NCBI RefSeq assembly: GCF_029784155.1
Contig: NC_073691.1
Span: forward strand, 132,804,714 to 132,868,713
Length of the DNA stretch: 64,000 nucleotides
Reading direction: 5' to 3'
Source of the DNA: Uranotaenia lowii
Taxonomy: Eukaryota > Arthropoda > Insecta > Diptera > Culicidae
Below, one piece after another: positions 22,661 through 53,470 of the stretch. Position numbers and translations under genes: made by a program. The notes under the pieces were generated by a model. That model saw only the letters and a program-made list of their open reading frames with translations, had not been told where the DNA came from and did no database searches. How positions within the stretch are numbered: the stretch's first letter is position 1; each line of letters starts with the position of its first letter.

Positions 22661-22669
22661 AGTTTTTGT

Positions 22670-25814: not shown

Positions 25815-26591
25815 CACAGCAAATTTTTTTTTGCTGGTTTTTGTCCCGCTAACTTTCCAGCAAAATTTTCAGCAATTTAAATTGCTGGAAAGAACAGCAA
25901 ACGTTGATGCTGGTTTCCAGCAATTTAAATTGCTGGAAAATAAGCAATCCAGATTGCTGGAAACCAGCTATTTCTTTCAAAACAACCGGCTGTATTTAGT
26001 ATCAAATTTATATTTCATTAAAAATTAAATATTGAATACTGACTGTGCATATAATGGGCAATAAGAAACAATTACTTTCTTCCATTTTTCAATAATGTTT
26101 GTATTTATTTCCAAAAACTTTTTCTAAAAATTTTACAACACCGGCTCTAGAGTGGCAGCTTTGTGCCAAAGTGTTGATCATTCGCCACCTGAAAAAAGAA
26201 TTCTGATTAGTATCTTTTATGAAATATCTACATGTTAAATAAAAACTCACTCTTGATTTGATGTCTGGTTGCTAGAATATAGAGGAAAATAAAAATAATT
26301 ATATTAATCTAACCAAAATTCGTAAAATAGACCTTGCATCAGCATACGAAAACAAACAGACTTCAATTTGACAACTCGATTGCTGATTTCCCAGCAAACT
26401 AGATCAATTGCTGGAAAGTCCAGCAATTTGGAAACCGATTGCTGATTTTTCAGCAAAAATGACAAGAACACAACCGAATGCTGAAAAATCCAGCAATTCG
26501 AAAATCGATTGCTGGTTTCCAGCAAAATTTTGGATTGCTGAACGTTTCCAGCAATTTTTTTTGCTGGAAATCGAGGCAAAAATTTACAGTG
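25815..26591 (-). mobile_element. TIR mini-gene cassette A (777 bp), nested in hAT-like H
   Basis: Flanked by TA (25,813-25,814 and 26,592-26,593). The left end begins CACAGCAAATTTTTTTTTGC and the right end in reverse begins CACTGTAAATTTTTGCC. Both flanks are packed with a palindromic motif, CCAGCAATTTAAATTGCTGG at 25,918-25,937 and single TTGCTGG/CCAGCAA copies at 25,850-25,970 and 26,380-26,570. The ~400-bp centre lacks the motif and holds intron-like signals on the minus strand. No transposase is present. Confidence 0.75.
26147..26352 (-). pseudogene. Exon-intron remnant in cassette A
   Basis: Minus strand: a 21-nt stretch (26,271-26,251) lies between an acceptor ATATTCTAG and a donor GTGAGT. 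The intron 26,250-26,189 (62 nt) ends TTTTTTCAG. The next exon opens GTGGCGAATGATCAACACTT and reaches TAG or TGA within 42 nt depending on frame, followed by AATAAA near 26,110. An ATG lies upstream at about 26,345, separated by a possible intron with a poor donor. The encoded peptide would be very short, so this is either a remnant or an untranslated spliced RNA. Confidence 0.35.
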
Positions 26592-26862
26592 TATAGAACC
26601 AAGATAAAAAAAAAACGAATAATATATGCTTGAACACACTTAGTCAGCTAGTTTAATACTCAAATTAACATTCTTAAGAGTTCTCAGGCTTGCTTTTTAT
26701 TGCAAGCTTCCATTTATATTAAAAATACGTTAGGAAGTTGAAAATGTAAGGATTTTTGAATATCCACCTCAAATACCGATTTCCATACCGATTTTTAGGA
26801 TTTCCATACCGATAAAAGATTTTTTTGGGTTCCAAAATACCGATAAAAGTGTGGCATCACTG

Positions 26863-27190
26863 GACATAAGCTCGAACGGTATGAGAGAAATTGAGATGGT
26901 GTGCTCCGCTCGCGTCCCTTATGTGGTTTCTCCTTCTAAAGGAAACCTTTGCTTGCGAATATAGCGTTAGGCTATCGAAGCGAAGCCCGCCATCGCTGCA
27001 GAAAAATGCGATGTCAGATGTTACACCCATCGATTGGAGTGTAATTGAAGAATTAGAGGCGAATCTACCAAGCAAGCCTCTCTAATAAAATAAATTAAAT
27101 TAAATTAGTAATTGAAGAAACTTTGAAGGCAAAATAATTGGAACTTCGATTTTCTATAATGGAAAACAGTTCGGTTAATACTGACACTGG
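26863..27190. repeat. Module copy 2, right part
   Basis: Resumes at the second GACATAAG and continues through TGTTACACCCATCGATT. Unlike copies 1 and 3 it then carries a short open stretch ending LEANLPSKPL and TAATAAAATAAA. Confidence 0.7.
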
Positions 27191-27239
27191 TCCCATTGTT
27201 AAATTTTGTCTCGAATTAATTTGTTGACATATTTACGTT

Positions 27240-29060
27240 TATGAGAATTTTGTCATATTTGTAACTTTTCAGTTGACAAAATTGACGAAATGGAATAAAT
27301 TGACACAATTAACAGAAATGATAAAAATTAGAAAATGAAAAATTTGAAAGAAATTTACAAAATTGACCAAATCGACAAAATTGACCTAGTGGACAATGTT
27401 TAAAAAAAAAAATAGAAAAAATTGACTAAACATATTGTCTATATTGATGAAACAGAAAAAAACTGTGCAAAATTAACAAAATTGAAAAACTTGACAAGAT
27501 TGATAAGCTTGACAAATTTGACAATAAAGACAAATTGCAATCTTGTTAAGTTTTTCAATTTTGTTAATTTTTGACAAATTTGACAATAAAGACAAATTGC
27601 AATCTTGTTAAGTTTTTCAATTTTGTTAATTTTGCACTGTTTTATCTGTTTCATCAATTCATATTGTTTTGTCAATTTTTTCAATTTTGTCAATTTTTTT
27701 TCAATTTTGTCCACTAAGTCAATTTTGTCGTTTGGTCAATTTTGTATAATTTTTTAATTTTTTTCAATTTTGTAAATTTTTTAATTTTTGACATTTTTGT
27801 TAATTTTGTTAATTTATCAAATTTGTCACAATTTTTTCAATTTTTTTCAATTATGTCAATTTTGCCAATTTTGTCAATTGGCACAATTTTTTTTGTTTCA
27901 ACAATTTTGACAATATGTTTTGACAATTTTGACAATATGTTTTGTAAATTTTGCCATTATTTTTCAATTTTGTCCACTAAGTCATATTTTTCAATTTTGT
28001 CGATTTTGTCAATTTTGTAAATTTTTTTAAATTTTTTCAATTTTGTAATTCTTGTCATTTTTGTACATTTTGTAAATATAGTCCATTTTGTTAATTTGTC
28101 AAATTTGTCACAATTTTGTCAATTATTTCAATTTTGTCAATTTCGCCAATTTTGTCAATTGGCACAGTGTCAGTTTTGACAATATGTTTAGTCATTTTTT
28201 TTTTCAATTTTGTCCACTAAGTCAATCTTTTCAATTTTGTCGATTTGGTCAATTTTGTAAATTTTTGTTTTTTCAATTTTTACAGTTTTGTCAATTTTTT
28301 AATTTTTGTAATTTTTGTCAATTTTGTCAATTTTGCCAATTTTGTTAATTTGTCAAATTTGTCACAATTTTGTCAATTATTTCAATTCTGTCAATTTTGT
28401 CAATCAGCACAGATTGTTTCTGTTTCAACAATTTTGAAAATATGTTTTGTCAATGTTGACAATATGTTTTGTCAATTTTGACACTATGTTTTGTCAATTT
28501 TTTTCAATTTTGTCAATTTTTTTCAATTTTGTCCACTAAGTAAATCTTGTAAATTTTGTAATTTTTTTTTCAATTTTGTCAATTGTTTCAATTTTGTCAA
28601 ATTTGTAATTTTTGTTAATTTTGTCAATTTTTTTTAATTTTGTCAAAATTGTCATTTTTTTTTCATTTTTTTTCAATTTTGTTAATTTTGTCAATTTTTT
28701 TTAATTATGTCAATTTTATCAACTTTGTCAATTTTGCCAATTGGCACAGTGTTTTCTGTTTCATCAATTTTGACTTTTGACAATATATTTTGTCAATTTT
28801 GACAATATGTTCTGTCAATTCTGTCATTTTTTTTCAATTTTGTCCACTAAGTCAATTTTGTCCACTGTAAAATTCCCAATTTTGTAAAATTCTCGATTGG
28901 GTCAATTTTGTAATTTTTTTCAATTTTGCCAAATGTGTCAATTTTGTCATTTTTGACAATTTTACTAATTTGTCAATTTTGTTAATTATGTCAATTTTTT
29001 AATTTTGTTGATTTGGACAGTTTTTCCTGTTTCATCATACTGACAATATTTTTTGAAAGA
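27240..29060. repeat. (GTCAATTTT)n minisatellite, block 3, with an inverted start
   Basis: About 1.8 kb. The first ~250 bp (27,270-27,535) carry the unit in reverse orientation (AAAATTGAC); from about 27,540 it switches to forward. A 62-bp segment, GACAAATTTGACAATAAAGA onward, is tandemly duplicated at about 27,506 and 27,568. Confidence 0.85.
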
Positions 29061-30240
29061 TTTGTCAATTTTCTTAATAACAACTTATACTCGACAATAT
29101 TTAAAATATGTATTTTTGATGTTTGTCTCGTCAGGATACATGCTACTACTAGATGAATTTATCCCAGTATGACATAATTTTTTTTCCAATAAGATTCTAT
29201 TTTCCCTACCCAACATGAGATCAGCAGCGGTATCAGTTGTCAGTTGTCAGCTGAGTGAAAATTTCCATTCGAAGAACTACATTACATCTCAATTTCTTCT
29301 TTTGTCACCCCGAAATTTACAAAAAAAACCCGATGGGGGAGATAAATAAAGTATGAAATGTTTTATGTAAATTTCAAAAAAATCAAAAATCCGAAAAATT
29401 ACAAGATTAAAACCAAATTTTGGAAGATGGGAATTATTTCAACTTTTGTATTCTTGATTTTATTGATTTATTTGATGAAAAGTTACTTGATTTATAGATT
29501 TTGTGCAATGATGTAATATGCAGTTTTGTTGCACATAAACTTCCGTGCAATTTATTAATTTTTTTTTTTGTTTTTCGCATTATTTTGTTTATTATTTATT
29601 TATTTATTATATTTTATCGCGATGTTCCAACAGGATTTGATTAGATGTTCTGATATTTCAAACGCGAAACTAGCAGTCAGCTCGGAATGAGAACCGAGCT
29701 GACTGCTAGTTTCGCCCTTATGAAATGCAACGCTAGGTTTGTTCACATTTTGCGCGTTCGTCCTTATACAAATTTACTACAGAATTGTCTGACAGATTCC
29801 CGCTTGCGTCTTATAACCCTTCTAAAATTTTAGCACAAAACGATCGCGGTTTGGGCACAGGCTAAAAGTTTGAGTCAATGCTACTAAATGGAGAAATTGT
29901 GTGCGTATGATTCGGACGATTCACACCAACTCAATTTCTCTCATGCTCTCACGAACGACATAAGCTCGAACGGTATGAGAGAAATTGAGATGGTGTGCTC
30001 CGCTCGCGTCCCTTATGTGGTTTCTCCTTCTAAAGGAAACCTTTGCTTGCGAATATAGCGTTGGGCTATCGAAGCGAAGCCCGCCATCGCTGCAAAAAAA
30101 TGCGATGTCAGATGTTACACCCATCGGTTTGATATAATAAGTTCGGGGTGGTACCCCTTTACGAAAATCCATATTTTTATAATGTGGTTTGGAGTTGCGA
30201 CTTCAAAAATTTTTGAAACCGGTTCGGTTTATACTGAACT
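29060..30240. repeat. Module copy 3 of the 3.1-kb unit
   Basis: Uninterrupted module. Contains an extra perfect 22-bp inverted duplication at 29,664-29,715 and the long hairpin at 29,922-29,996. Confidence 0.8.
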
Positions 30241-30375
30241 GGTACATAATATAAGTTTTAATAATCTTTCATGTAAGAATTTTTCTTATTCGTTTTGTCG
30301 GCATGATGACATCATGAGTGTGAGTGAGGCTGTAATTTTAACCACCGCACACAGTGAGCGCGCCCACCGTGTCTA

Positions 30376-30400
30376 TGACGTCATCTATAATTTGACGTCA
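30376..30400. promoter_or_regulatory. Two CRE-like TGACGTCA palindromes
   Basis: TGACGTCA at 30,376-30,383 and again at 30,393-30,400, 17 bp apart start to start, with a TGACATCA variant near 30,307. These are perfect matches to the CREB/ATF consensus. No gene is recognised next to them, so function is unknown. Confidence 0.4.
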
Positions 30401-30419
30401 TTTATACGATAATCTTGAT

Positions 30420-33400
30420 TTTAGTGATTGCTGGTTGTGGCTAGCCAGCCAAATTGACACGTTTTTTGGAGTGATGATTTGATGATAATTACTATGAAAA
30501 TTTATTTTTCAAACTATTTTGTTTTTTTTTCTTTCTTTTATACATTGAAGAGGGAAAAAAATCAAATTTTTTAAGACAAAAATCATTTTTATTGTACTTC
30601 CCAGTTTCGCAAAAACGTAGTGACAAAGTTTATAAAAAAATCACACCAATACATACAAATACACTGACATCGTCTGAACTCGTCGAGCTGATTCGATAGG
30701 TACCTATAAAGGTATATCTAAGACCCATAATTAAGGATCTCCCAAATCGACCGATAACTATACCTTTCTGTAAGAAAGGCAAAAAGATAATTGACAAGCC
30801 AAATGAAAACTGTCTTGATTGAATCACATATTAGGAGTTTGATTTGAAATTCTATTTATCTTAAAAAATTTCTCTTTCGTTTTTGACTTCAATGTTAAAT
30901 TGCTTAGGGGGAAAGTTCATATAACGCCCCATGTGGCTAATACGCGCCACTCATGTTTTGAAGAATCTGTAACATTTTCAGTCTGCAAAATATTACCAAT
31001 TTGTTTTAAATGCTGAGATAGGCCAAGGCAAGTATTTTTCCTTAAAATACCTCTGTGTCGTGAAATTTCCAAAATTTAGGTTTTTCTTCATTTTGATGTA
31101 AATTTTAAAACGCTTTCAATAAGGTGTCACCAAGCAGAGAAAAAACGAATAAGACAATATTTTCTGACCCATCGATAGAGGATAATCTAAACTATGATTT
31201 TACGCTAAAAAATCATAAATATATGCTGTTTAAAAACTTATTAATTTTGGTAAAAAAAACAATTGTAATGGCCTTTTTGGCATAATTCTGGATTAAGGGA
31301 AAATTAACCTTAAAAGCGACAATTTTTTAAGACTATTTTTCCTAACTTAAGCCGTACACGAGAGCAAGTGTGCGTGATTAATGTCAACTATAAAATCATT
31401 TATTCAAAAACAAATTGTTGAAAAACAAGACAAATATGCACTGAATTTGGAACATTTCAAAATGTCTTTCAAATTCATTTTTCTTTGCTTCCAAAAATTT
31501 TTCACTTTAGACATTTAACCAAATTTTTTGATTCAAAGTTTTGTTTAAACCATAGTCTGATGCAAACGAAGGTCAATTTTATTTTTTGATTTTTTCAAAT
31601 ATCGTATGTCTGTGTGAGTGAGTTCATTTAATGTTTTGATTTTGATGTGACGAATTTACGTTCTAAGTAGGCGAGACTTTTTACGCAACGCACGCGTTTT
31701 TTCATCCGTCCGCTAAATTTCTGAATTTTATCAATAAAAAAAAGTAAAACCGGTGAAAAAATGTTATTTCCGAATAACCGGGATCCAGTGATACCTAATG
31801 TGGCCACCAGTTTTCAGACAAAATCAGAAGTTTCGTGTTCTAAAAAAGGGAGAAAATTTTAGGAAAAATAGAAAAAAATGGTTGTTGGAAGAAACACGTG
31901 CAGGGTGCAGAAGTTCGAGGCTTTTGTTAATTTAAATCTCGTCGTAAACTTCCAACTCGTAAACCAGTAAAGATTCTGTCTATTTATGTGTAATTTGTGT
32001 TGAAAGGTGCTGTTAAAGTGAGGGGGTTGGAAAATTATCATTGTGAAATGGGGGAATTGAGGATGATGAGAATATAACTACTTGCCAGCCATTGTTAAAT
32101 TAATAAATTTTGATTGGCATAGGTGCGCGATGTTTTAAAAAAAACTAGCACTATAGGCAATCTAAGGTGGTATAGGATGAGAGGGGAAGGAAAATGGTTT
32201 TGGTGAGTAGGAAGTGAAACGTAACAGGTTCGTTTCTACTGGAGACGGAACAAGTGGAAATAGAAAAAGGAAGAAAATATTGTCTAGAAAAGTTTACAAG
32301 TGCGGTAACTGAGAGGGAGTGAAAAAGAAAAGAGTTCCTTTGCTATCTCCTGTGCTGATTGCTGAAGTCGGGTTGGCTGATAACCCTGGTTGTTGGTTTC
32401 GCTCGGATTGCTTCGATTGAATTTCCTGAGATTTCGTGAGCTAAGTATATTCTTTCTGTTTCTAATAGGCGATGGAAGCGCTGACGAATTTGGTTGATGG
32501 TTTTGCATTAGTGCAAGTGGGATGCAGCTATAATTTCACCTAACTTTTGATAATTCTAAAGGGGTTTTTCTTAAGGAGAGAAACTTTTCGCTTCCATCGC
32601 CCATTCAATTCATTTCAATTCATGTTTGAAGTATAACCCTTACCATGGAGGGGCCAGGGCAGTGGCTTTTTTCTCATTCTGTACCAAGGAAAATTTTAAC
32701 AAGATCAAACTATGAATAATCAACGTCAACATCTTAACCTTGCACTCATATAAATGAAGTGCTCATATAAAAATTTATCCTCTGAATATACTTTTAGTAT
32801 AGAAATTTTCTCAACAGAATTCCTTTAAATATTATATTGGTAGTTTGAACCGCATTTGACGTTGTATAATGTGCTATTTGTTTTTATCATTAAATTATTG
32901 TGAAAGAAGTTTTTCTGGGAGAAGGGGGTTTGGGAACACTAATCATGATTTTTTTGTTCTCTAATGTTTCTTTTCAAGAGCGAGCAAAGGCGCTATATCC
33001 TAGGTCAATGACCAGAAATGACAGTGCACCGAAATCCTAAACTCCAAATTTTTACTATTATATGCTATTCACGATAATATTTAAAAAGTAGTTTAAAAAT
33101 AAAAATAGTTCAACGAAAAAAATAAGGAAATTGAAAGAAAATATTACTTTTACAATGGGGTTTTCGATTTCTGTGCAGAAAAAACATCATTTCCATCCAT
33201 GAAGGACGAATCCACACGGACCATCATCAAGGAGCACATAAAATTTAGCATATGTGCTTCCAACGTTAAAATCAGTTATAGCCATGGAAACGTATGGTAC
33301 TGTTGTCCACGTTTCTTCCTCCCTGTGTTCCAGTTGTCTCTGCGTTCAATACTACACAGTGGGCCCGGCCATGTTAAGATGAGTAGTAAATGTACTTTTA

Positions 33401-34646
33401 CTACTCACCGGGATGCTGACAAGATCTGGCTGTGTATGTATCATAAGCATAAGCATAAGCATAAGCATGATGTGACGAATTTACGTTCGTTTTTTTGTAC
33501 CCATTGATAAAATCAATTACTCGTGCGATATTCAAAAGATTGTTCGATATTTAACAAAAAAATATAATGAAAAAATAACTAAACTACAGAACAGGAAAAG
33601 CTAAGCTATTCTCATAAAACAGATTCGGATGTTTGAGACTGTTTGTCAAGAATCATTACAATGTCAACCAACACACTTTGTTAAAAATTGTACTAAATTT
33701 TTGGGAAAATGTGTACAAAATGCATCATCTCGAAGTCCAAAATATTTTATCGAAAGCTGCCTCATCCAGTGGGCTGTTTACGGGCTCATTAAATATTCTA
33801 ATTCAGTTAGAAAAGCAGACATTTCTCGAATGTGACTAAATTTCTTATAGAAAGAAAAATTTTAGGATTAATTGGAGAAAAGATTGAATAAAAATCTGAC
33901 ACTGGTTTTTTGTTGTAAATGGTGACGTAATGATAAATTTTGTTGTTTTGATTTTAATTCGTCCCTTCTGTTAATAAAACATTGCTTAACAAATTTTGTA
34001 AATATCACCTCAACTTTTGTTTTATTCAGTTAAACTTATGCGGCGATTCGGCTAGGTGAAGGGTTTGGAGAAACTCTAACTGAAACAGATTGTTCAACAA
34101 AACTTTGTAAGAATCTTGTCCATTCAACTGTTTTCATTAACATAATTTAAAGTCACATACAATGTACTGTCGTTTTGCAATATACAATCAGTGTAATGTT
34201 TTTACGATGTCATTTGTCGTTTTCTCAACTATTCCCAGATCGTTTTATAATTGTTTACAAATAATTTTGTCGTTACAATATTTTTCTACTCGCGAAACTT
34301 GAACTTACTCTTGACAAAGGTTCCATGGTTAGCGAAATCTTGCAGTTGAAAGTGATCTTCACAAATGAAGCAATTGTTAGGCAGCTCTTCATTTCCGCAA
34401 TTCTTCTTGTGAATTGAGAATGTGTGGTTTTCAACCACATCGGAGATGTCAAAAATGGATATTTTTTAACCACAACGCAATAAGGAAGTGAAGCGGAAAA
34501 ACTCAAGTTTTCATTCAATTTTCATTTCTGCCGCAGTCGATGTATTTTATAAGCTTTATGGTTGGATTTTAACCACGTTTGGCTAATGCGCTGATGGTTC
34601 TTAAGTGGTTTTTGAAATATATCGTGTTTTTTTTTTCAATCAAAAG
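30420..34646. other. Non-coding stretch, no gene recognised
   Basis: AT-rich. Contains CTATACCTTTCTGTAAGAAAGG near 30,758-30,780 in repeat-like context, an 11-bp-arm hairpin TGAGTAGTAAA/TTTACTACTCA at 33,380-33,407, and a (CATAAG)n microsatellite at about 33,441-33,468. GATGTGACGAATTTACGTTC occurs twice (about 31,643 and 33,469), directly after the microsatellite in the second case. The open frame at 32,284-32,508 (-) shows no domain. Confidence 0.5.
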
Positions 34647-34648
34647 TA

Positions 34649-35585
34649 CACGGAAAATAATAAAAAGGTAAAATTTACCGAGACAGCAAAGGTGAACGCT
34701 CGCAAAAGCCAAAAAGGTAACCTCTACCTATTCGAGGTGAAACTCACCTCACAGCGAGGTAAAATATACCTGAAACGAAGAATGAAAAAAGGTACAATTC
34801 ACCGAGAAAAAAGGTGAATCCAAAAAAAGGTAAATTTTACCTCGTAGCCTCACCTGAATTGAGCTGAATCAAAAAGTATAATCCACCTTGAAAGAAAGGT
34901 AAATCCAAATAAGGTAAAACTTACCTCGTAGCGAGGTGAAGTTGACCTGGATTGAGCTAAACAAAACGGTACAAATCATCTCGAAAACAAGTAACTATAT
35001 GACGAATCCGTTTATTGAGGTTAAGCTGTTTTGCCGTTTAGGAACAAGTTTTGCTTCGTGCACAATATGTGAAAATCGGAACAAAATGGTAAGTGTTTTC
35101 TAAGATTTTATTTAGTTGTGCTGGTTCTCTTCATAATACTTTGCTTTTGTTTCAGATAGGCCCACAGAGCTTCGTGTTGTATTCCCGTCCGCCTTCAGAT
35201 ATTATTCCGGAAAAGCCGGACCTGACAAGCTTGGCGAACAAAGGACTTGACTCAACAATTTTTAAAGAACACGATGATATATTTCAAAAATAAATATTAG
35301 GTAACAGTCTCTATTTGTTTCAAATAAATACCAATTTTTTCATGAACTGTGTTTTTTTTAAATTATTTTTTATTGAAGAAACCAATCAAACAAACTAGCA
35401 TTTACCTTTTAAATCAGTGAATCGGAAAACGGTATTATTTACTATTTTGCTAGGTGAATGAGAAAATGGTAAAATCTACCTTTTTGCTAGGTGAATGAAA
35501 AAAAGGTAAAATTTACCTCAAAAGAGGGGTGGAAAAAATTCACCTCGCAAAAAGGTAAATTTTACCTTTTTTTTATTTTCCGTGT
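34649..35585 (+). mobile_element. TIR mini-gene cassette B (937 bp)
   Basis: TA on both sides (34,647-34,648 and 35,586-35,587). The inverted ends are nearly perfect: CACGGAAAATAATAAAAAGG on the left, and in reverse CACGGAAAATAAAAAAAAGG on the right, both running into GGTAAAATTTACC. Both flanks repeat GGTAAATTTTACC and AGGTGAA/TTCACCT units (34,665-34,960 and 35,450-35,575). The central ~430 bp are free of the motif and carry a clean two-exon gene model with AATAAA. No transposase is present, so mobility would need help in trans. Confidence 0.85.
34999..35293 (+). CDS. Spliced mini-gene in cassette B, product unknown
   Basis: Exon 1 ends at 35,088 in AACAAAATG with the donor GTAAGT directly after. 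The intron is 35,089-35,155 (67 nt) with a pyrimidine tract and TTTCAG. Exon 2 reads 45 codons from IGPQSFVLYSRPPSDII to a C-terminal HDDIFQK and TAA at 35,291-35,293. AATAAA follows at about 35,320. If the start is the ATG at 35,086-35,088, in good insect context, the protein has 46 residues and its first codon closes exon 1. The frame is also open upstream to ATG 34,999, giving 75 residues with CTICEN in the first exon. I recognise no family. The signals are too complete to look accidental, but expression is unproven. Confidence 0.55.
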
Positions 35586-35587
35586 AG

Positions 35588-41573: not shown

Positions 41574-41575
41574 TA

Positions 41576-42024
41576 AAGGGAGTCCACGATGAAATTGCCA
41601 CACACAAAATTGATTCGAAAAATTTGAGTTTTCATCCGATTGCCATCAAATTTTCAGGGATTTAAAAATAATTACATTAAAAATTATCAATAATATTAAA
41701 TTTCATTTTACCATTTTACTCGTATTTTAGTTACAGTCCAAACGCAAATACCCTTACCTTGGCCTTAACCCCGGCCATAAGATTCTGCACAACCTGTGAA
41801 TCAACCGTTTTTTGCATGTAAACTCATACCTACTTTCTTCAGATCCTCGACTGTTTTCACTACCTTAGGTCGTTTAAGAAGGTGCTGCTTTATAATCGCC
41901 CAGTACTTCTCGATGGGGTCGAGCTCCGGAGTGTTGGGAGGTTTGAACATTTTCGGTACGAAATTGACCTTATTGTCTGTGATATATCTTAACCTAAAGG
42001 TCAAAGATAGTAGCGGTGGTCGGA
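41576..42024 (-). mobile_element. DD37E-type Tc1/mariner element, 3' part (left of the gypsy insertion)
   Basis: The left terminus AAGGGAGTCCACGATGAAAT is preceded by TA (41,574-41,575). Its inverted partner is at 50,839 (AAGGGTGTCCACGATGAAAT in reverse, followed by TA 50,840-50,841). Between about 41,760 and 42,010 the minus strand encodes the end of the transposase: VNFVPKMFKPPNTPEL, then DPIEKYWAIIKQHLLKRPKV with the third catalytic acid. The frame is lost after VEDLKKVG. The remainder of the gene lies 7.9 kb away on the far side of the inserted gypsy element. Confidence 0.85.
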
Positions 42025-42202
42025 TGTAAAAAAAATATATTAACAGCGGAGTGTTCGGTTTAACGTCCAAGATACTAAAGAACGAGAATTTATTTCCTAA
42101 CTTGAAATATTCATATTCAAGTTCCCTTTTTCTTTTTGCTTTCGCTCTCTTAATCGATTGCAAGCTTAGTTCATCTAACTCAATTTTAGGTTAATCACAA
42201 CA
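42025..42202 (-). repeat. Candidate 3' LTR of G1 (178 bp)
   Basis: Minus strand starts TGTTGTGATTAACC directly after the purine tract and ends ...TTTTTTTACA at the point where transposon sequence resumes. An AAATAAA lies inside. TG..CA ends fit an LTR, but without a second copy this stays a prediction. Confidence 0.5.
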
Positions 42203-42345: not shown

Positions 42346-42980
42346 TCAATCAGTAGTATACAAAATCACACTTTCTTCTTTTCTTCGTTTTTCGTTCCGA
42401 TCGACGAATCGAACGCTGCGTAGAAACAGCTTCTTGAAGAGCTTGCGACTCGTGTTCCTTATCCATTGGAAACAAAAATGAATTGGCTGGGAAACCGAAA
42501 AATCCTCAGAATCTGTGTCAGAGTAAACATCCGCTTCCTCATCTCTCCTCCTTTTAGGTGGTTGCCGTAAACTCGTGGTTTGTTGATTGTTGCTACGTTG
42601 AACAAAAACATTTTCATGTTGGAAAACTATCTTTCGTCTACTGCGCGAAACTGGTGAAATTTTCAGTTGGCGTCTATGCGCCTGAAGAATGCGACCGCCG
42701 AGCGAGATCTGTGAAATAGTGTTCGAAATATGTGTCAGAAATTTTGCAGGTAACGATATTCGAACGTCAGTTGGGTTAGGATTTTTGCAGTAAATCAGAT
42801 CACCATTTTTTAATTTGTTAAAAGGATCAGGTAATATCTTGTTTTCCGCTGTTATTGATTTATCATCATCGTTAAACTTTTTAGTAAAATTTGGTTTAAA
42901 ATTATGTTTAGGGTTAGTCAAATCCAATTAAGTTTTTGGTTTAAATGAAAAGAGGCGTTCTGAAGGAAATTGACCATCTG
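42346..42980 (-). pseudogene. G1 integrase C-terminal part and tail
   Basis: Minus strand continues the G1 integrase after the G2 insertion: DGQFPSERLFSFKPKT, a TAA at 42,928-42,930, then LDLTNPKHNFKPNF, the GDLIYCKNPNP segment and GGRILQAHRRQLKISP, which correspond to the SH3-like C-terminal part of Ty3/gypsy integrases. The serine/arginine-rich and acidic tail ends at 42,346. Reading frame and sequence join precisely to the part at 45,285 and rightward. Confidence 0.8.
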
Positions 42981-43051
42981 AATTACCGTATCTAAATGGA
43001 AGAAAATTTATTATTAAAACCGACCATAGACCTCTTGTATATCTATTTACC

Positions 43052-44368
43052 ATGAAAGACCCTTCATCCAAACTCACACGCATGAGATGGGATCTGGAGG
43101 AATATGATTTTCAAATAGAATACATTAAAGGTAGTTCGAATGTGTTATCGGACGCGTTATCAAGAATTCAAGTAACGTCAGAAACACTCAAAAACATGTA
43201 CCTAGTAACCAGATCTATGGCCAAAAGAAACGTATCCAAACCAACTGACAATCAGACACAGAAGCCTGATCAACTTCACGTGTACGATGCAGTCAGCGGT
43301 CTGGATACATTTGATTTATCAAAATTAAGATTTTTATATAACGAAAATACAAATAAGATAGATTTACATATATTCAATAATAACTACAAAAAGAGCTTAG
43401 CATTAGTGCAAGATCTTGAATTAAATAATGAAACATTATTAAAACCCATGCTACAGAAAGCATTTGAGATAATTGATAAAGGGATCCCTAACACAAAAAT
43501 GAAGGTAAATGATTCAAATATGAGTAAAGAAACAAGAAAACTTATACAATTGAATCCAAAAATGGCCAAGCAATTCGCGATTGCAAATAATGATTTAATT
43601 TTTAAATACATTGACGTCAGTTTATTTAAAGAAATAGGTAACTCAATTCTTAGGAATGTTACCGTACTAATTTTTGAAAAACCTCAAGTTTTAAAAAACG
43701 ATATTGATATTGGAAACATTCTTCACCAATATCACAATACACCCGTCGGTGGACATATAGGAATTAACCGACTTTATAAAAAACTAAGACCAATATATTT
43801 CTGGCTCAATATGAAACAAATTATTACCAATTATGTCAATAATTGTACCCAATGCAAACTAAATAAACATTTCACTAAGGTACAAACCCCAGCAGTAGTC
43901 ACAACTACACCCATAAAACCATTCGAAGTCGTATCCATTGATACTGTTGGACCATTCCCGTTATCGGAGAATGGGAACCGTTATGCAGTATCGATGCAAT
44001 GCGATTTTACCAAGTATGTTATTTTAGCTCCAATACCAGATAAAACAGCAACAACTATGGCAAAAGCCGTGATTGAAAAATTCATCTTAATATTTGGACA
44101 AATGAATCAAATTAAAACAGATCAAGGAACAGAGTTTAAAGCTGTCTTTGATGAAGTGTGTAAAACATTACAAATTACACATACATGTTCAGCTGCCTAT
44201 CACCCTCAAACAATAGGCGCATTAGAGAGAAATCACAGGTGTTTAAATGAGTACCTGCGAATTTTCTGTAATGAAAAAATAAATGATTGGGATTGTTGGT
44301 TACCGTATTATAGTTTTTGCTATAATACAACTCCAAATCTCGATCACAACTACACCCCGAAAATCTAA
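43052..44368 (+). pseudogene. G2 pol: end of RNase H and integrase core
   Basis: 438 codons. The RNase H end reads IEYIKGSSNVLSDALSRI. After a spacer comes the integrase zinc-binding region (HQYHNTPVGGHIG ... NCTQCK, residues ~230-272), then the catalytic core with SIDTVGPFP (first D), KTDQGTEFK (second D) and HPQTIGALERNH (E), the DDE layout of retroviral-type integrases. The frame stops at 44,366-44,368, shortly after YNTTPNLDHNYTP. The continuing C-terminal domain is in the next frame, so an indel of one or two bases near 44,340-44,370 breaks the gene. The core itself looks well preserved, which suggests a fairly recent loss. Confidence 0.85.
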
Positions 44369-44369
44369 C

Positions 44370-44863: not shown

Positions 44864-45278
44864 TGTAGCATGTGAAATGCGCGATTCCCACGTAGCAATC
44901 AATTTTAACCCAAGCCTTCGAAATGCTTATGCAACACATGTAAATGAGTGCATAGAGCAGTTCGAAGACCCACGGTACTTCGCAATAAATTACGACATGG
45001 CACAAAAACGTAAGCTCATATTAAGTCTTTAGAACGATGAACCCAAAGTGTCGTTGTCTAGCGCACTTGGTGCTAATGACCTTCATCGTCAAACATATTT
45101 ACCCCTCTCTCGTTATCCTCGCTCTCTTTATAGCGATCACGCGATCAAGTAAATAACAAACTCATAATCGACTCCAGGTACCTCCAGTATGTATATTGTA
45201 AAGACTAAAATAATTGAATAAACAGATTGATTCCAACCTTAAACTGTGAATGTGGTCACTCCTGTGAAAGTCCGAACA
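44864..45278 (+). repeat. Candidate 3' LTR of G2 (~415 bp)
   Basis: Begins TGTAGCATGTG after the purine tract GTAGGGGGATGG and ends ...GTCCGAACA, with AATAAA at about 45,219. TG..CA ends and tract position fit an LTR; no second copy is present. Confidence 0.55.
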
Positions 45279-45284
45279 TTTCTT

Positions 45285-46586
45285 AATGGTAATGTTTCAG
45301 AGATGTGTTTCTGTAGTTAAATAGAAAAAAGCAGATTTGTTCGTCGGTGTCCAGCTTGTTCATATCCGGGTCCAAGAGAAATTTTCTCCAAACGTCCTTT
45401 ACCAGTCTGACCATACGTTCAGCTTGACCGTTGCTTTCTGGATGGTAGGCAGGACTCCTCATAACTCGGATTCCTTGTTTCTCCAAAATTGCCTTGAAAA
45501 ACTCCGAATTAAACGGTGGACCTCCATTGGTTACAATAACATCTGGTAACCCGAACCTAGCGAAAATACTTAGAAACACTTCCAACACCTTTCTGCAGTC
45601 TGTACCAAACCTCATGTACTCAAGTTCAAGCCATTTACTATGACTATTACTACTACCAAAAACGTTTTCTTTTGAAAATGGAAGAAGTCAGCATGCAAAC
45701 GACTGAACGGTTTGTTCGTTTGTTGCTATGACGAATAATTTCTGATTTCCTAATGGCAGTAGTTTGATGACAGATTTGACATGCTCTCACAAAATCTTCG
45801 ATGTCGTCGTTTATTCCATTCCAAAAGACAGTTCTTCTTTGCCATCTGTTTAATTTTACTGATTCCAGAATGATTCTTGTGTAGTATCTTTAAAACTTTA
45901 TTTCTCAGAGACAAAGGTATCATTACTCGTCCTTGGAAAAGAATACATCCATCAAATTCCACTAAATCATGATGATTTGAGTAAATATTCTTAAATTTTT
46001 TGTCTAAACGCTCAGGCCAACCATTTTTTAAAAATTGCATTACTTTCAACAAAAAATCATCTATAGAAGTCTCCTTCGCTATCAGTTTACAATCTATGGG
46101 AAATTCATCAGAAAAGTTTAAACTTTTAATATATTCTCTTGCCAATTCTTTTGGAACCTCCTGCTGAATTGGGAACCTAGAACAAAAATCCACGTTCCCC
46201 ATACGCGATGATGGTCGGAATATTATATCATAGTCGTATATGGACAATTCCAGAATATATCTTTGTAAACGAGTGACAGTTATTGCATGTTTTCCTTCTT
46301 TTCCATAAATACCAATTAAAGGCTTATGATCGGTGAAAATTTTGAACTTCTGTCCGTAAAGAAACTTGTGAAACTTCTTCACCGTGCTTATAACTGCAAA
46401 CGCTTCTAGGTGCAAGATGGGGTAATTTTTTTGTGCATTACTAAGCGAAAATGAAGTGAAACTTATTGGCCTTTCAACACCATCAATTTCGTGTGCTAAC
46501 ACACCTCCTAAGCTATAGTTACAAGCATCGGTAACTATTACTATAGGCTTAAGTGGATTAAAAAATTCTAACAGGTTTGATGACAT
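45285..46586 (-). pseudogene. G1 RNase H and integrase, broken
   Basis: From 46,586 leftward the minus strand gives RNase H (PIVIVTDACNYSLGGVLAHE; AFAVISTVKKFHKFLYG; FKIFTDHKPLIGIYG) with its acidic residues, then the integrase zinc-binding part (HKNHSGISKIKQMA) and, after frameshifts near 45,815 and 45,620-45,690, a core containing HADFFHFQK (first D), FGLPDVIVTNGGPPF and HPESNGQAERMV. The second catalytic position reads TNGG where TDNG is expected, so the catalytic aspartate is lost. It ends at the G2 junction after SLKHYH. Confidence 0.85.
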
Positions 46587-47719
46587 TAAAAATTATTTGC
46601 AATTGTTAAAACTTTGTCACAATTATCATTCCAGACATATTTGACATTCTTTTTAAGTAAATTATAAAGACAATGGATGCGAGAAGGTAGATTTGGGATA
46701 AATTTAGCATAATAGGTAACGAGACCCAAAAAAGCTTTTTGTACAGATTCATTTTGTGGAGGTTTAGCTTCCCTAATGGTCTGAATTTTCTCCGGACATG
46801 GAAGCTAAACCCTGATCTGTCAAGATGTGTCCCAAATATTGTAATTTATTCACAAAAAACTTGCATTTCTTCCAGCTCACCTTTATGTTAGCCTTAGCAA
46901 GCCTGTCCAAGACTAAATAAAGCTTTCGCATGCAGCCTTCAAAATCAATTCCCGCTATCAAAATATCATCTAAATAACAAAAAATTTTGTCCAATCCTTG
47001 CAATATTTTGTCCATAACCTTCTGAAAAATTGATGCTGATGAAGAGACACCTTGTGGCAATCTGATGTAAGCATAAAGTCCATTGATCGTGTTGATAACC
47101 ATAAATTTTCTGGATCTATCAGACAAACGAAGTTGCGTATAAGCCCCAGTTAAATCCAGAGGGCAAAAACTTTTGATCCAGCCAGAGAGGCGAATAAATC
47201 CTGTGCTAAAGGTAAAGGGTACGTGTTAGGAACTATCACTTTGTTGATAGACACCTTACAGTCGATTACTAGGCGTATGTCTTGATCTTTCTTTACCACA
47301 ATTACAACAGGCGAAGCCCACTCACTGGCTTCCACAGGCGTAATCACGCCTTCTCTCTCCAAATCATTTAAATACTCCATCACTCTTGGTCTTAAACGCA
47401 AAAGTACCTCATAAGCCTTTTTAAAAATCGGTCTGTCTTCCTTCAGAATCAAATCCCCCTCAAAACCTTTGATTGGAATTGAAAAATCTTTATTAAATAC
47501 TTTTGTCAACTTACTTTTTATCTCATCAACTGCCTTATCTTCTTTCAACATGTGAACGCTTTCTTGAGGAAAAATGTGTTTCGCAAAAATGCTCCGCCAG
47601 TCCGGGTACAAAACGTCCAACCAAGTGCGCCCCATCAACGGAGTAAACTCATTATCGCATCGCAGTACAATCAAGTTTAATTTTTTTAAATTTTCCACAT
47701 CTACCTCGAACATTCCCAA
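46587..47719 (-). pseudogene. G1 reverse transcriptase, broken
   Basis: The first frame (47,719-47,150) carries GRTWLDVLYPDWRSIF, then EREGVITPVEASEWASPVVI and RLVIDCKVSINKVI. A frameshift near 47,160 leads into LTGAYTQLRLSDRSRKF, LPQGVSSSASIFQK and the polymerase box IFCYLDDILIAG in the frame that stops at 46,773. A further shift leads to VQKAFLGLVTYYAKFIPNLP. The YLDD box and its neighbours are intact; the shifts alone disable it. Confidence 0.85.
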
Positions 47720-48870
47720 AATTTGAAATCTTTTGCCATCAATCTCTTATTACATGAACTCAATTTCTGATTTTTTAAGTTTCTGAGAAACAACTCCTCA
47801 GAAATTACGCTTTCCGCTGAACCACAATCTACCTCCATTGTCAAACGCTTGTTTTTAATCAGAGTTTTCACATAACATGGACCATTCGATCTGATTTTAG
47901 ATCCAGACCTAGAAGCGATCATTAAACAAGATAGTTCCTCATCACTATCCGTTTCCAAATCAGTTTTTAATCGCTTGAAAATTGAAGAAGAAGTAGAAGG
48001 AACAATAGTTTTAGGAGTATCCAAAAATTTGACACTATTTTGATTTCTATTAGAATTCCTGTTATTTTGTTTCAATTGATAGCAAAATTTTCTAGTGTGT
48101 CCTCTTTTTTTGCAAAATGAACAAACAAAAACTTTCTTTTCATTACTGAAGCGATTTCTGCTTGAAAAAAGATCTCCACTTCTACTACGTGATGAAAATG
48201 AACGATTATTAAAATTGTTACGATCCCTACTGCGATCTCGGCTTCTAAAATTTTTTGATAACTTATTTTGGTAAACTCGGTTGTTGTTATTATTATTGTA
48301 AGGGCGAGAACCTAGGCGCGAAATAATGTTAACATTTTTCTCCTTCTTTCTGCTCAGAAAACGGGTACGATTCATAGCATGCTCATGATTAAGAATCAAT
48401 TGCTCAGCTCTTTCAGCTGTTAAATCTTTTTCATTAAAAAGTTGTTTTTATAATTCTTCAACGTTTACACCAATTGCCAAAACGTCCCAAATTCCCCTTT
48501 GCTTCAATTCCCCCAAATTACATTTCTTCGCCAAAACTTTGACGGCTAAAATGAAGTCTTCCGCTTTCTCATAGTCACCTTGACGCCTCGTCCAAAATTC
48601 CTCGCTTTGCAAAATTTCCGTATCCGATTTATCGAAACGTTTATTCAATGCTTCCGTGATCTCTTTATATGTGAGATCTCGGAAGTTACGTCCGGGAAAC
48701 AGTTTTTTTAATTCGGAATATACTTCCTGTCCACACACAGCCAAAAAAGAAACTTTGTACCTGGCTTCAGTGTATTCGTTGTGTTCAAATATAAATTCTA
48801 ATTGTTCAAGGCATTGCGAAAAAGGAACTGAACCAGGAATGTATGGTTCCATAGTTGCAGTTAAAGCCAT
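47701..48870 (-). pseudogene. G1 gag and protease, broken
   Basis: Starts at ATG 48,870 (MALTATMEPYIPGSVPF). The capsid-like part ends at a TAA (48,448-48,450) in the middle of an otherwise continuous frame that resumes QLFNEKDLTAERAEQL. The nucleocapsid-like part is rich in Arg/Ser/Asn and has one zinc knuckle, CSFCKKRGHTRKFC (CX2CX4HX4C). The aspartic protease follows with MEVDCGSAESVISEELF; its active-site triplet reads DCG instead of the usual D-S/T-G. A frameshift near 47,710-47,740 separates it from RT. Confidence 0.85.
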
Positions 48871-48879
48871 AATGGTTTA

Positions 48880-49944
48880 ATAAAAATGCGATTTGCTAAT
48901 AAGTGCAGTACAATATTCAAAAAGATGAGAAAAATAATAAAAAAAATATCGTTAAAATAACCCAAAAAGGGCAAATAAATGCTTCAAAATGATCAGTTTG
49001 CTAAAATCAATTAAAAATACAATGGAAAAATAACATACCTGAACCACCCTAATCGTCCCAACTTCTACAAGATCTGCTTCGGTCGCAAAAAAACAATCAC
49101 CAAAATTTGTGAATTTATCACTACCAGGCTTCTGGCAGCAGCAACAGTCTTCAATCCGGGTTAAAAGATTCCTGAATAGTCCTCCGGTTGGGTCTTTCCA
49201 ACAACAGCAACAGGGCAACAGCATCAACAGTGCAACAGCAAGCAAAATTTTCCAGGCAGCACCAACGCAAACAGCAACAGCAAGATTTCGGTTTACAACC
49301 CTCTGGGTGAAAAAAGAACAGCAATCAAACAGCAGGCAACAATCCCACTGGGCACAATCGTGAGAAAACTCCTTTAGTTGAGCACTTTAAGCACGAAATT
49401 GTCGATCAAAATAATTCACACTTTGTGAATTCTGCAATTTTGACAAACTCAAATTGCCACAGCTGATTTTGATTGTCTCTGTCGTAGTGAGACAGTTGTC
49501 GTGAGTAGAGCAAACAAAAAGGGATAACCAAAATGGTGCACTCACAAAAATTTCACCTCGTGGCAAACAAAATGGTGGTACACATGTAATAATGTTACGC
49601 AAAATTTTCGAAAGAAAATCGTCAAAATTTCACTTAGTGAAATCAATAGTTTTAAAATGCTTTCTCTCAATAATTGTTCTGTATATAAAAAAAAATCGTG
49701 TGGAGGAATAGTCAAAAAAATCACAGAACAATGGTTTTTACGAAAAATTGGTTACAGTACCTTGCTGAACAATGGCTCCTTTGTTCAGATGAAAAAAAAC
49801 GTGGTTTTTCGGGAAACCAGCAAAAACGAACTCCTCCGTTGACCAAACAAGAATTCCAAAAGGAATATTAAAAACAATTCTTCTTGTTAATCTACCACAC
49901 GCGAAAAACTTTCGAAATACAACTTTCTTATCTATATATAAAAA
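48880..49944. other. G1 leader / putative 5' LTR region
   Basis: Between gag and the resuming transposon lies about 1 kb with a CAACAG-rich patch at 49,135-49,340 and AT-rich sequence beyond. It should contain the 5' LTR and primer-binding site of G1, but I find no copy of the 178-bp candidate 3' LTR, so either the 5' end is diverged or replaced, or the LTR call is wrong. Confidence 0.45.
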
Positions 49945-50839
49945 AAAAACTTTATCCTCGTCGCCAAACTGATATATCTTGACTGTTGTGGGTTATGACG
50001 TTGTGGGTCTTCAGGAGGGGAAGCAGCCGCTTCTGGAGGCATCCTTTCATGTACGCCTGTCCGTTCATCGTGTCCTGGGTCACGAAAGATGCACTCCGTT
50101 TCCCGCACGTGCAGATGGCTTGCCAAACCAGTAATTTATTCGCAAATTTGGACATCTTCTGAGCGCGGACATTCTCCGGAACGCTGAACTTATCCTTGGC
50201 CGTGAAAAACAGGTTACGGGAATCTGTTTGAAGTCGGATTTCACATATGTTCCGTCGACAATGATAAAGCATTCAACTTTCGTCAGCATGTTAAGGTACA
50301 ACTTCCTGGCACGGGTTTTGGCGAACTTGTTCTGCTTCTCGTCGCGATTAGGGGCCTTTTGTACCTTGATTGTTCAAAGCCCAGCCTTAGTTTTGGCCTG
50401 CTGGACTTCGGCTACGGTGCAGCTTCTTAGCCACATCCCGACCGGAGGCATTCCGGGTTCGTTTGAAGGCCTCAACTACGCGGTTGTGATTTTTGGTGTT
50501 GGACGGAATACCTTTTTCTTCACTTCTGGGCCTCCGATCGGTGGTCAATTGTTCCACGAACCGCACAATCGCGACACCGTGGAATTCGCGAATCCCAAGG
50601 TTTTAGCGATGGAACGATGCGAGAGATCCTTGTTCTCGAGATGAATGAGCAAGATTTTATCACGCACGAGTTGTTCTTTCGACTCCATTTCGCCGAGTTT
50701 TGATCACAGGAGTTAAAAATTTGCAGGATATAAACAATGCACTATGAACTCAATCCACCAAAATGTTCATTAAATTCTACCCAACCGTTAAAAAGTTAAA
50801 GCAATTTCATAGTGTGGCAATTTCATCGTGGACACCCTT
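49945..50839 (-). mobile_element. DD37E-type Tc1/mariner element, 5' part (right of the gypsy insertion)
   Basis: From the right TIR (50,839) the minus strand shows untranslated DNA, decayed DNA-binding region, then the transposase core: KLYLNMLTKVECFIIVDGTY with the first catalytic D, VKSDFKQIP, FTAKDKFSVPENVRAQKMSK, LLVWQAICTCGKRSASFVTQ and CLQKRLLPLLKTHN. It stops at an A-rich junction with G1 near 49,945. The second catalytic D (PDLASCHY block) should lie at the junction and is not visible. Several frameshifts are present. Confidence 0.85.
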
Positions 50840-50841
50840 TA

Positions 50842-51300
50842 TAAGCGCTTTCTTCACCGGGTATCCTGTTTTTACAGTTTTCATGGCCTGTTTGGGACGG
50901 TGAGTGCTTTTCGATTGACAATTGCTCTTGCCATGGTTTTTGGAATGCATATAGAGGATCAAACCGATGAAAAAATTGAAATCTCGGAGAAACTTATGTG
51001 TTTGTTTAACCTGACCTTTCAGAGTCCGTCTTACCAGCCTAAGCAACTTTTTTTTCAAAACGATTGTTGCTCAAGCCCTCTGACCGAAATTAGCTGATTT
51101 TTCTCTAGATGGTTAAAGAAAAGCCTAATAGACAGCCCACCTTTGAAAACGGTCGTAGTTTTCGAAATTGTCGCAAGTTATGAACTACTTCTGATTAGAC
51201 ACAATCACATCAAATAATGGACAAAGTTTTTATTTATTTTGTTTACTATTATGAGACCTTGCTTGATGCAAATAAACGAAGGGTCTCTAAAGTGTTGATA
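50842..51300. other. Gap without recognised gene
   Basis: A minus-strand open stretch (51,058-50,842) contains CQSKSTHRPKQAMKTVKTGY and could be a decayed transposon coding fragment. A donor-like GTGAGT at 50,900 and acceptor-like CTTTCAG at 51,022 occur on the plus strand. No family assigned. Confidence 0.4.
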
Positions 51301-52480
51301 CACTTAGGCAAACAGCCTAGGCCGAGCAGCCAGGGTGGCACTTAAGCGAGCTATTAAAACAAGCAAAGAGAACTGTTACAGAGTGTTATGCCAGAGCGTA
51401 GATGATAACCCATGGGGCCAAGCCTACAGAGTTGCACTGGCGAGATTCGCTGGCCCAAGGTGGCTGACCGAAAAGTATCCGGAAAAACTGAGAGAGATTG
51501 TTGCACATCTTTCCGCAGCTTGGCCCGACGCAGTTGCCACTTACCCCGTACGACGCGGGTGCCCACGACATCTAGCCAGTAACGAACGAGGAACTTGTGG
51601 CTATCGCTAAGAAACTTGCGATGATACGGCCCGGACGGAATCCCAAATACAGTGCTGAAGGTGGCTGTACAGACCATTCCGGATACTTTCAGAGTGGTAA
51701 TACAAAAGTTTCGCGACGAGAAAACTTTTCCAAATTCTTGGAAAACGGCGAAATTGGTGCTACTAACAAAACCTGGGAAGCCACCAGGGCATCCATTACC
51801 ATACAGACCCATTTGTCTGCTGGTCATCCTTGGTAAGCTACTGAAGAGGATAATATTTAACGGACTTAATATTCGGAAAGGGAGATCTACGGTGAACGCC
51901 TTCCGAATGGTGACAGAGTACGCGAAGCGCGCATATAAAAAGAAGCGGACAGGTGCTCGTCACTGCGTCATTGTATCAATCGACGTTGAGAATGCCTTCA
52001 ACAATGCCAGCTGGGAAGCAACTGCCAAAGGATACCCTCTGCATGATAATAGGAAGCTTCTAGGATAATCGAGTCCTGACGTACGAAATCGAAACTGGGT
52101 TACGATCTACTGCCCTAACAGCGGGTGTTCCACAGGGTTCCATTATCGGACCTATGCTTTGGAATGCCATGTAGAATGAGGTGTTAACACTGAAAGGCGT
52201 GCAGAAAGTCGGATTTGCTAACGGAGGAGCGGCCTAGAGCTCCGCGATAGAGCTAGAGCGCAACAGATCCAAATAACGGAGCACACATCGGCTGATAACC
52301 ATGCGAGTGTCCTGTCCACGAAGCAAGAGCTGTTAGAGGAGTGCGTAAAATTCAACGAGCAGCGTCAATGCTCAAGTGGCAGAAGCAATGGGACACATCG
52401 AACAACGCAAGATGGAAGCACAGGCTAATCCCGTGACTTTTAGACTGGGTAAATCGGAAGTATGGAGTGGTCAACTTCTA

Positions 52481-53470
52481 CACTGCAAAAAATCCACATA
52501 TTTGGAATATGTGTTAGCCTTATAGATTTTTGCAATTTGATTCCCATTTGGAAAATACGTGCCCACACATATAGAATTCAAGATTATAACTTTTATATGC
52601 GTCACATAAAAGTTATAAAGTCCCACACATATTATGAGCGTACACTGTACTAAAATATCTGCCTACTTTAGGGCGTTTAAATACTTGCCTACTCAAAGGC
52701 GATTTTTAATGTTTGAATTCGTTTTTCGGAAGAACATTTGAATTTATTTTGGCTATCGAGACATTCCTGTATAAATTTTTATTTTTTATTCCGGCATGAT
52801 AATTTAATAACAATGAACTTTGCTCTTCCTCGTCCTTGAATAACTCGTACTTTTGTCTCGCGTTTCTATTTCACTGGAATTCGGATCCTTATCAATCTCC
52901 AGGAGTCTTTGTCGGGATTTTTCTGAAACATAATATGTGTTACAAACCTAAATTCGATCAAATGAACTATAAACTCACCTTCTGAATTGTATGAGTAAAC
53001 GATTGCCGGTTTTGGAAGGGCCAACCACCCTGCCCTGAGTGTAACCGGTACCCGAAGGCAAGTCACCAGCTGGAACCCGGATGCGAATGGTATCAAACTT
53101 GGACCATTTCCGGGCGACCAATTTCTGGAACGAACGAATTTCACCATCTCGGTCGGTAGCCAGTTTTTTTGCGGGATAGAAAAGAATAAATCAATGAAGA
53201 TCCACTTCTATAATGTTTATAAACAATTAATTACTTTACTAGTTGACGCCAACTTGTTCTTCAGGTCGGCCATTTTTATGACATGAAAATTTTCAAAGAC
53301 TAAAATCATATAAATTATGTGTCAATATCATATAAACTTCATATTTTGACCATAAATTTTATGTGTGACATATGATAATCATATGAATCATATGAAATCT
53401 AAGCGTAGAACAATTTTTAAGACGTATGTGTGGGGGAAACATACATCCTAAGTGTGGATTTTTTGCAGTG
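52481..53470 (-). mobile_element. TIR mini-gene cassette C (990 bp), inserted in the R1-like LINE
   Basis: TA at 52,479-52,480 and 53,471-53,472. The inverted ends are CACTGCAAAAAATCCACATA and, in reverse, CACTGCAAAAAATCCACACT, 18 identical bases. Flanks are rich in CATATAA/TTATATG and ACACATAT words in both orientations (52,500-52,640 and 53,280-53,420). The centre holds a three-exon gene model on the minus strand with AATAAA. LINE coding sequence resumes on both sides, which proves insertion. Confidence 0.85.
52892..53273 (-). CDS. Spliced mini-gene in cassette C, product unknown
   Basis: Minus strand. Exon 1 (53,273-53,235) starts AAAAATGGCC and reads MADLKNKLASTSK, followed by GTAATT. 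Intron 1 is about 66 nt; its acceptor is degraded (CCCGCAAAAAAA where CCCGCAG is expected). Exon 2 (about 53,169-52,979) contains LATDRDGEIRSFQKLVARK, VPAGDLPSGTGYTQGRV and GPSKTGNRLLIQF. Intron 2 (52,978-52,923, 56 nt) has donor GTGAGT and acceptor TTTCAG. Exon 3 adds KIPTKTPGD and TGA at 52,894-52,892. AATAAA lies at about 52,785. The product would be ~86 residues and basic, with no signal peptide or recognised domain. The frame is kept across intron 2 exactly. Confidence 0.55.

Follow-up and report, generated by a model that had tools for sequence, protein, structure and literature searches.

Spliced-looking centres in four families of short inverted-repeat elements in the genome of the mosquito Uranotaenia lowii

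What are the short, TA-flanked cassettes that lie in a 64,000-nucleotide stretch of the Uranotaenia lowii genome, and does each of them deliver a small gene of its own? The stretch (hereafter the window, C1:132804714-132868713) belongs to a genome of 1.078 Gb whose three long contigs measure 216, 437 and 370 Mb. A sequence-only reading of the window had described five cassettes, A to E, as a group of transposons moving small, intron-bearing genes. We find that A, B, C and E have relatives elsewhere in the genome, that insertion duplicates two base pairs, and that an exon-intron layout recurs across the copies of each family. The small genes look decayed, and we regard them as leftovers or passengers more probably than as genes that the elements deliver.

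The window was scanned for TA-CAC...GTG-TA pairs spaced 250-4000 bp apart with at least 10 of 14 end positions matching, and the result compared to 30 order-3 Markov shuffles. A, B and C are the only pairs detected. Their 14-nucleotide (nt) ends agree at 12, 13 and 14 positions, respectively, and TA stands at either side of each; the shuffles held on average 0.07 pairs at 12 or more matches and 0.97 pairs at 10 or more. A, B and C are real elements bounded by terminal inverted repeats (TIRs), as had been claimed; the one correction is to B, placed at 34649-35585, of which the start stands and the end lies one base too far (correctly 35584). All three possess CA..TG termini. D and E had been said to follow the same plan with weaker ends. 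E terminates in CTCGC...GCGAG, not CAC...GTG, and thus lacks CA..TG termini, but its copies show 2-bp duplications. D has CA on its left and CG on its right, with no matching target duplication, and by eye is interrupted at about 4581-5577 by a repeat piece, an inverted copy of which lies at 55883-56283. The elements show no mutual nucleotide-level match in the window, and no transposase is visible in them, in agreement with the sequence-only reading.

Evidence that these ends mark insertions comes from copies elsewhere. First-look searches gave 1432 candidates for A, 1465 for B, 57 for C and 225 for E, and 40 per search were scored. Copies of A, B and E were retrieved with the centre as query, those of C also with the right-hand 291 bp (which include exon 1). 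Identity among the 40 scored was 87-100% for A and 95-100% for B; in the case of C, the right-hand 291 bp gave 40 matches (80-100%, among them the window's own) and the centre 46. Both ends are present in 25 C copies, counting that of the window, and identical 2-bp sequences flank 22 of these (19 TA, and AA, TG and CA once each); the flanks of L038, L051 and L056 are mismatched (L numbers denote individual loci). Thirteen further C loci were read, 12 chosen for having no centre match and one (L069) with a weak one, and all ten with both ends carry duplications (eight TA, one CG, one CA). Twelve B copies were fetched; 11, together with the window's, are readable at both ends, and every one carries the duplication (TA seven times, TG twice, CC, AT and CT once each); the twelfth, L075, is interrupted by a C-type insertion. 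The 18 fetched copies of A comprise six that share the 3' flank of the window copy, six without one or both recognisable ends, and six with two flanks; the last, all outside the shared-flank group, show duplications without exception (five TA, one TG). For E, 11 copies were fetched and six, counting the window's, are two-ended; five have duplications (AT, AA, TA, AA, TA) and L123 is mismatched. Insertion duplicates 2 bp, with TA preferred but not fixed. The TIRs therefore mark insertion boundaries in A, B, C and E by virtue of matching duplications; the earlier expectation of TA duplications describes the flanks of A to C in the window and is too narrow for copies of B, C and A. Evidence from empty sites consists of one joined flank pair and a nested copy with one junction, namely a C-type element inserted at a TA in the left arm of B copy L075, where comparison with L082, L094 and L096 fixes the right junction only.

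The copies of A require separate consideration. Six A centres, the window's counted, are identical, and six fetched copies carry the window copy's 3' flank. The sequence around A (25769-26631) recurs on both sides, over the length compared, in L099, L100 and L102 and on the 3' side in L097, L101 and L112, for which the 5' comparison spans only four bases. Because of this common 3' flank, the six copies probably represent one insertion in a larger repeat, within which A was probably co-amplified; the idea of recent bursts of A was dropped on account of the shared flanks. The only clear recent independent movement of A is L098, which has the identical centre and different flanks. In the window, A sits between diverged copies of a larger repeat (20210-21533, 22663-24412 and 27273-30126), about 75-82% alike in their longest matches and carrying long arrays of a 9-bp unit like AATTTTGTC.

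Three other loci bear on the history of individual copies. At L022 (634-1966) a C copy lies within another small element, AT-flanked and with inverted-repeat ends CACAATACCTTCCTTGG; by eye, a similar sequence is inserted in L058. The C fragments L031 and L054, on the same strand and separated by 4.7 kb, supply parts of a single copy that an insertion has apparently divided. The E copy L126 has about 3.6 kb inserted in exon 2; the longest stop-free stretch listed is 132 codons.

To which superfamily do the elements belong? The variable 2-bp duplication excludes a strict-TA Tc1/mariner origin: five of the 12 B copies have TG, CC, AT or CT at both sides, and C adds AA, TG, CA and CG. ISL2EU elements, which duplicate AT (PMC4482050), and ATon elements, which insert at AT, are rejected because the target sites disagree in A, B and C, and because E has AA and TA besides AT. 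CMCT transposons have CA..TG ends and 2-5 bp duplications (PMC12730594), and the duplications of B (12/12), C (22/25 and 10/10) and A (6/6) lie within that range. CACTA elements, moreover, carry reiterated direct and inverted subterminal motifs that are family-specific and bound by TNPA-like proteins (PMC2613891). The arms of A contain TCCAGCAA 11 times and those of B AAAAAGGT nine times, in either orientation in each arm and with the centre free of motif. In D, AGTTGAAT occurs 14 times, in a single orientation on the left and the reverse on the right; in E, CTGAGTAA occurs six times, mixed in the left arm and one-way in the right. The array of C is weak: its three top 8-mers occur four times each, and two of them have one occurrence in the centre. 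The description of a motif-free centre between flanks with an inverted motif thus holds for A and B. Subterminal direct and inverted arrays, a CACTA trait, are clear in A and B and weak in C. Taken together, CAC...GTG ends, arm arrays and varied 2-bp duplications suggest non-autonomous elements of CACTA/EnSpm type (CMCT), and judged by structure this is the most likely placement of A, B and C. E behaves as A to C do in its duplications and differs from them in its termini.

The centres of these elements have a spliced-looking layout (Table 1). In 23 aligned copies of C, read on the minus strand, exon 1 with ATGGCCGACC or similar precedes a first intron of about 64 nt; exon 2, a 56-nt second intron, exon 3 and AATAAA come next in that order. 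Twelve copies of A outside the shared-flank group have two introns around a 21-nt middle exon, with all four splice dinucleotides intact in ten; in older copies the donors GTAAGA and GTGAGT are complete. Copies of B and of E contain a single intron, and in E the donor GT is present in 11 of 12 copies and the acceptor AG in all 12. The splice signals noted in the window hence recur in copies of A, B, C and E, which makes the exon-intron layout a property of the families.

Table 1. Elements and predicted introns in the window (strand of the centre or intron; coordinates are window positions)
Feature	Position	Strand	Description
Element A	25815-26591	minus (centre)	TA-flanked; ends CACAGCAAATTT.../CACTGTAAATTT...; arm motif TTTCCAGCAA/TTGCTGGAAA
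A intron 1	26272-26332	minus	61 nt; donor lacks 4 nt found in older copies (65 nt, GTAAGA)
A intron 2	26189-26250	minus	62 nt, GTGAGT...TTTTTTCAG; then AATAAA at 26109 (minus)
Element B	34649-35584	plus	TA-flanked; ends CACGGAAAATAA...; arm motif AAAGGTAAA/TTTACCTTT; TIR pair CACGGAAAATAA...AAAGGTAAAATTTACC
B intron	35089-35155	plus	67 nt, ATG|GTAAGT...TTGTTTCAG
B terminal exon	35156-35293	plus	stop at 35291-35293 overlaps AATAAA at 35289; second AATAAA at 35323
Element C	52481-53470	minus (three-exon layout)	TA-flanked; perfect 18-bp ends CACTGCAAAAAATCCACA; weak CACACATAT-type arm motif
C intron 1 (approximate)	53169-53234	minus	acceptor AA in the window's subfamily, AG in most other aligned copies
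C intron 2	52923-52978	minus	56 nt, GTGAGT...GTTTCAG
Element D (tentative)	4234-6758	plus	ATTCAACTATA arrays at about 4330-4570 and 5585-5690, opposite orientation at about 6370-6740
D putative intron	6032-6089	plus	58 nt, ATG|GTAAGT...CACAAG
Element E	54222-55067	plus	AT-flanked in the window; ends CTCGCTAATTTTG.../CTCGCTAACTTTC...; arm motif CTGAGTAA/TTACTCAG
E intron	54468-54527	plus	60 nt, ATG|GTAAAT...TTTTACAG

Sharing of the centre itself is built in for A, B and E, because the centre served as query. For C the right end provides an independent sample: 29 of its 40 matches retain part or more of the centre (27 by centre match, plus L058 and L059), nine (L060-L068) are without most of exons 2 and 3, L057 has the right end only, and one was unread. 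The absence of a conserved centre, which had been named as grounds for rejecting the idea, is accordingly seen in a minority of these copies. These nine, which lack much of the centre, are among the 13 further C loci; much of exon 2 is missing from the E copies L122-L125. The ATG|GT shared by the introns of B, D and E was considered as a mark of common ancestry and dropped: elsewhere, six out of 87 comparable donors likewise follow an ATG, and the longest frame of each of the six E copies tested reads this ATG in a different phase.

Evidence at the level of protein is mostly negative, and the cargo proteins of B and C are not visibly preserved. The short reading frames proposed for the elements proved weak: the window's frames were reached in 3 (B) and 12 (C) of 200 shuffles, and in 127 (A), 111 (D) and 129 (E), the last three being at chance. 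Among 13 sequences of B, only the window copy has the start codon. C frames span at most 28 residues in 18 of 23 copies and 56 to 115 in L027, L029, L030, L052 and L056. Searches of the PDB with B and C gave nothing significant, and a database of 5.8 billion proteins, in which mosquito proteins are not necessarily included, held no homologue for B or C, the two queries used. A 24-residue match of B to the Cbl RING linker (E 0.5) was treated as chance, given also its private ATG. An 84-residue protein in C was rejected because in the window's subfamily it would need an acceptor other than AG, and its frame is closed in most copies. Structured RNA was set aside, there being no Rfam match at the gathering cut-off in the whole window; pattern scans of viral contigs gave 3 and 15 matches, which we took as chance.

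How, then, did the layout arise? The explanation we favour, and to which we give an even chance, is that A, B, C and E are DNA transposons of the cut-and-paste kind, non-autonomous and internally deleted, which hold the remnant of a multi-exon gene. Transposase from an autonomous partner would act in trans on the CAC...GTG ends, and a DNA-binding protein encoded by that partner may read the family-specific arm arrays, by analogy with TNPA in maize Spm. Insertion leaves the observed 2-bp duplication with its preference for TA. The centre would consist of late exons, introns, a stop and a poly-A signal left by internal deletion, most likely from the parental element's own gene. It would now be drifting, with splice signals kept in most copies read and the C frame mostly broken or short; copies with much of the centre removed have spread as well, as the examples from C and E show. 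On the 27-copy tree of C the splice GT and AG change 0.38 times per site and random sites 1.04 times (P 0.04); the donors alone change 0.50 times (P 0.05). These two tests overlap and are uncorrected. B fits a remnant gene best, because its frame is open into the arm without a start, spans the intron and ends at AATAAA. Without the requirement for ATG, three of four B copies have frames of 98, 98 and 87 codons, which 20, 23 and 52 out of 1000 shuffles equalled; long terminal frames of this kind are expected for the 3' end of a longer gene.

Several observations weigh against this explanation. No autonomous partner was seen among the 13 C loci read with about 8 kb on one side; 11 of these are elements of about 0.65-2.3 kb, the left end was not found for L057 and L069, and the open reading frames (ORFs) of L057, inspected by eye, gave no sign of an autonomous copy. 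The fourth B copy, L080, has a frame of 61 codons, reached by 344 of 1000 shuffles. Frames of three A copies (600-811 of 1000 shuffles) and six E copies (112-702) are at chance, the A copies L107 and L109 being unscored because their splice sites were not located, and of the C copies, four in number, L059 alone is open through every junction (90 of 1000). Origin from a parental gene is something that we infer, and no cargo translation (9 + 5 sequences) matched Pfam at the cut-off. E has the wrong termini for CMCT, and C its weak array. Finally, a pattern of conservation that favours the explanation in C is not general. Parsimony on 27 C copies gave 0.33 changes per site in the terminal repeats, 0.67-0.72 in the arms, 0.97-1.34 in exons and 1.06-1.32 in introns, such that the conserved part of C is what a transposase would need; the arms of A and B (0.26 and 0.38, and 0.09 and 0.11 variants per site) are not clearly better kept than their exons (0.35-0.38 and 0.08-0.09), which lie nominally slightly below the introns (0.40-0.46 and 0.12).

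The main alternative, conceivable if doubtful, is that the centres were captured: each founder would have taken an unrelated host gene fragment comprising late exons and introns, which later decayed, in the manner of Pack-TIR elements. The elements are mutually unalike in the window, yet the introns of A, B, C and E run in one orientation and are followed by AATAAA, an arrangement that favours capture. There is precedent in animal Pack-TIRs and the fly population family Ssk-FB4 (PMC8277862), and in Turmoil-1 of C. elegans, which carries captured coding fragments (PMC2572040). Pack-TIR and Pack-MULE elements likewise are non-autonomous TIR elements enclosing exon-intron sequence, but the survey reports none in its insect reference genomes (PMC8277862). 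Nor was a host parent recognised in the loci read here (30 C, of which L031 and L054 are apparently one copy, 13 more C, 12 B, 18 A and 12 E), a result drawn from lists that element copies fill and of which 40 candidates per search were scored, most of them unread.

A less probable possibility is that the splice signals are chance features of AT-rich, non-coding transposon sequence, shared through common descent and, for A, B and E, through the choice of query. Donor-acceptor pairs scoring at least 5 occur about 0.9 times per kb per strand in the remaining window, and the reading frames of A, D and E do no better than chance. In addition, six representatives of the C subfamilies all keep six of 29 other GT and nine of 26 other AG dinucleotides. 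Set against this, A, B, C and E keep strand and order consistently with AATAAA close by, older A copies have full donors, and three of four B copies lie at 2 to 5 percent in the frame tests.

We consider it very unlikely that the mini-genes are working genes of their families, producing peptides or spliced RNAs that act on the element's own arm motifs, for example a miniature TNPA or a repressor. Retention of splice signals in several diverged families, the association of each family's own motif with its own centre, and the nominally slightly lower number of variants in A and B exons than in introns are in keeping with such a role. However, C exons change about as much as introns, and C frames break between subfamilies. 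No purifying selection on the frame is evident in C; B exon 2 shows no sign of it either, with 11 nonsynonymous and one synonymous distinct change against an expectation of 3 to 1, a ratio that says little because the copies are young and nearly alike; A and E were judged by length only. The A subgroup to which the window copy belongs has lost part of a splice donor and still moved afterwards, since L098 combines the identical centre with new flanks, and copies without much of the centre exist in C and E. Together with the private ATG of B and the short C frames, these facts leave the proposal that the elements move small working genes unsupported. Least probable of all is a fully fledged miniature, self-regulating CACTA system of non-autonomous elements, where the arm motif of each family would be recognised by the RNA or peptide of a small spliced gene that the family itself carries.

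CMCT transposons are the closest known counterpart of the elements: the CA..TG ends, 2-5 bp duplications, family-specific subterminal motifs and deletion derivatives moved in trans are alike (PMC12730594, PMC2613891), and the CMCT branch ESTA is named for its TA duplications. Points of difference are the lack of a visible transposase here, the 3-bp duplication of a soybean CACTA element, the CTCGC ends of E and the weak array of C. The mosquito mTA miniature inverted-repeat transposable elements (MITEs; TEfam) and ATon are also short and TIR-bounded, and are numerous in Aedes aegypti; ATon-I and ATon-II measure 112 and 144 bp and insert at AT (PMC3422177). The present elements, by comparison, are about 0.65-1 kb long, with arm arrays, splice-bearing centres and varied 2-bp duplications. 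FB4, the fly carrier of Ssk-FB4, is similarly non-autonomous and has repeat-rich inverted arms. It differs in its 9-10 bp duplications and TIRs of about 700 bp (PMC8277862).

Apart from the elements, the window contains tandem units of about 81 bp at 7225-8347 (one family with 12 copies), pieces of retrotransposon integrase, RNase H and, weakly, gag at 42974-44365 and 45753-48876 (Pfam), and weak DDE_3 transposase matches, under the curated cut-off, at 57200-57877 and 41804-42190. An ORF at 59237-59656 has a cyclin-dependent kinase inhibitor domain (PF02234, E 1.7e-7) and probably belongs to a host gene.

MITEs are usually described as being without coding capacity (PMC3517528), and in a literature search that covered few subscription journals we found no splice-bearing, short CACTA-like elements of mosquitoes. 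Here, a single genome holds four families of about 0.65-1 kb whose copies recurrently display an exon-intron-polyA layout. The varied 2-bp duplication and the motif arrays point to a CACTA-like transposition system in a mosquito. Such elements could seed new introns, exons and transcript ends at the sites where they land, and could complicate the annotation of genes.

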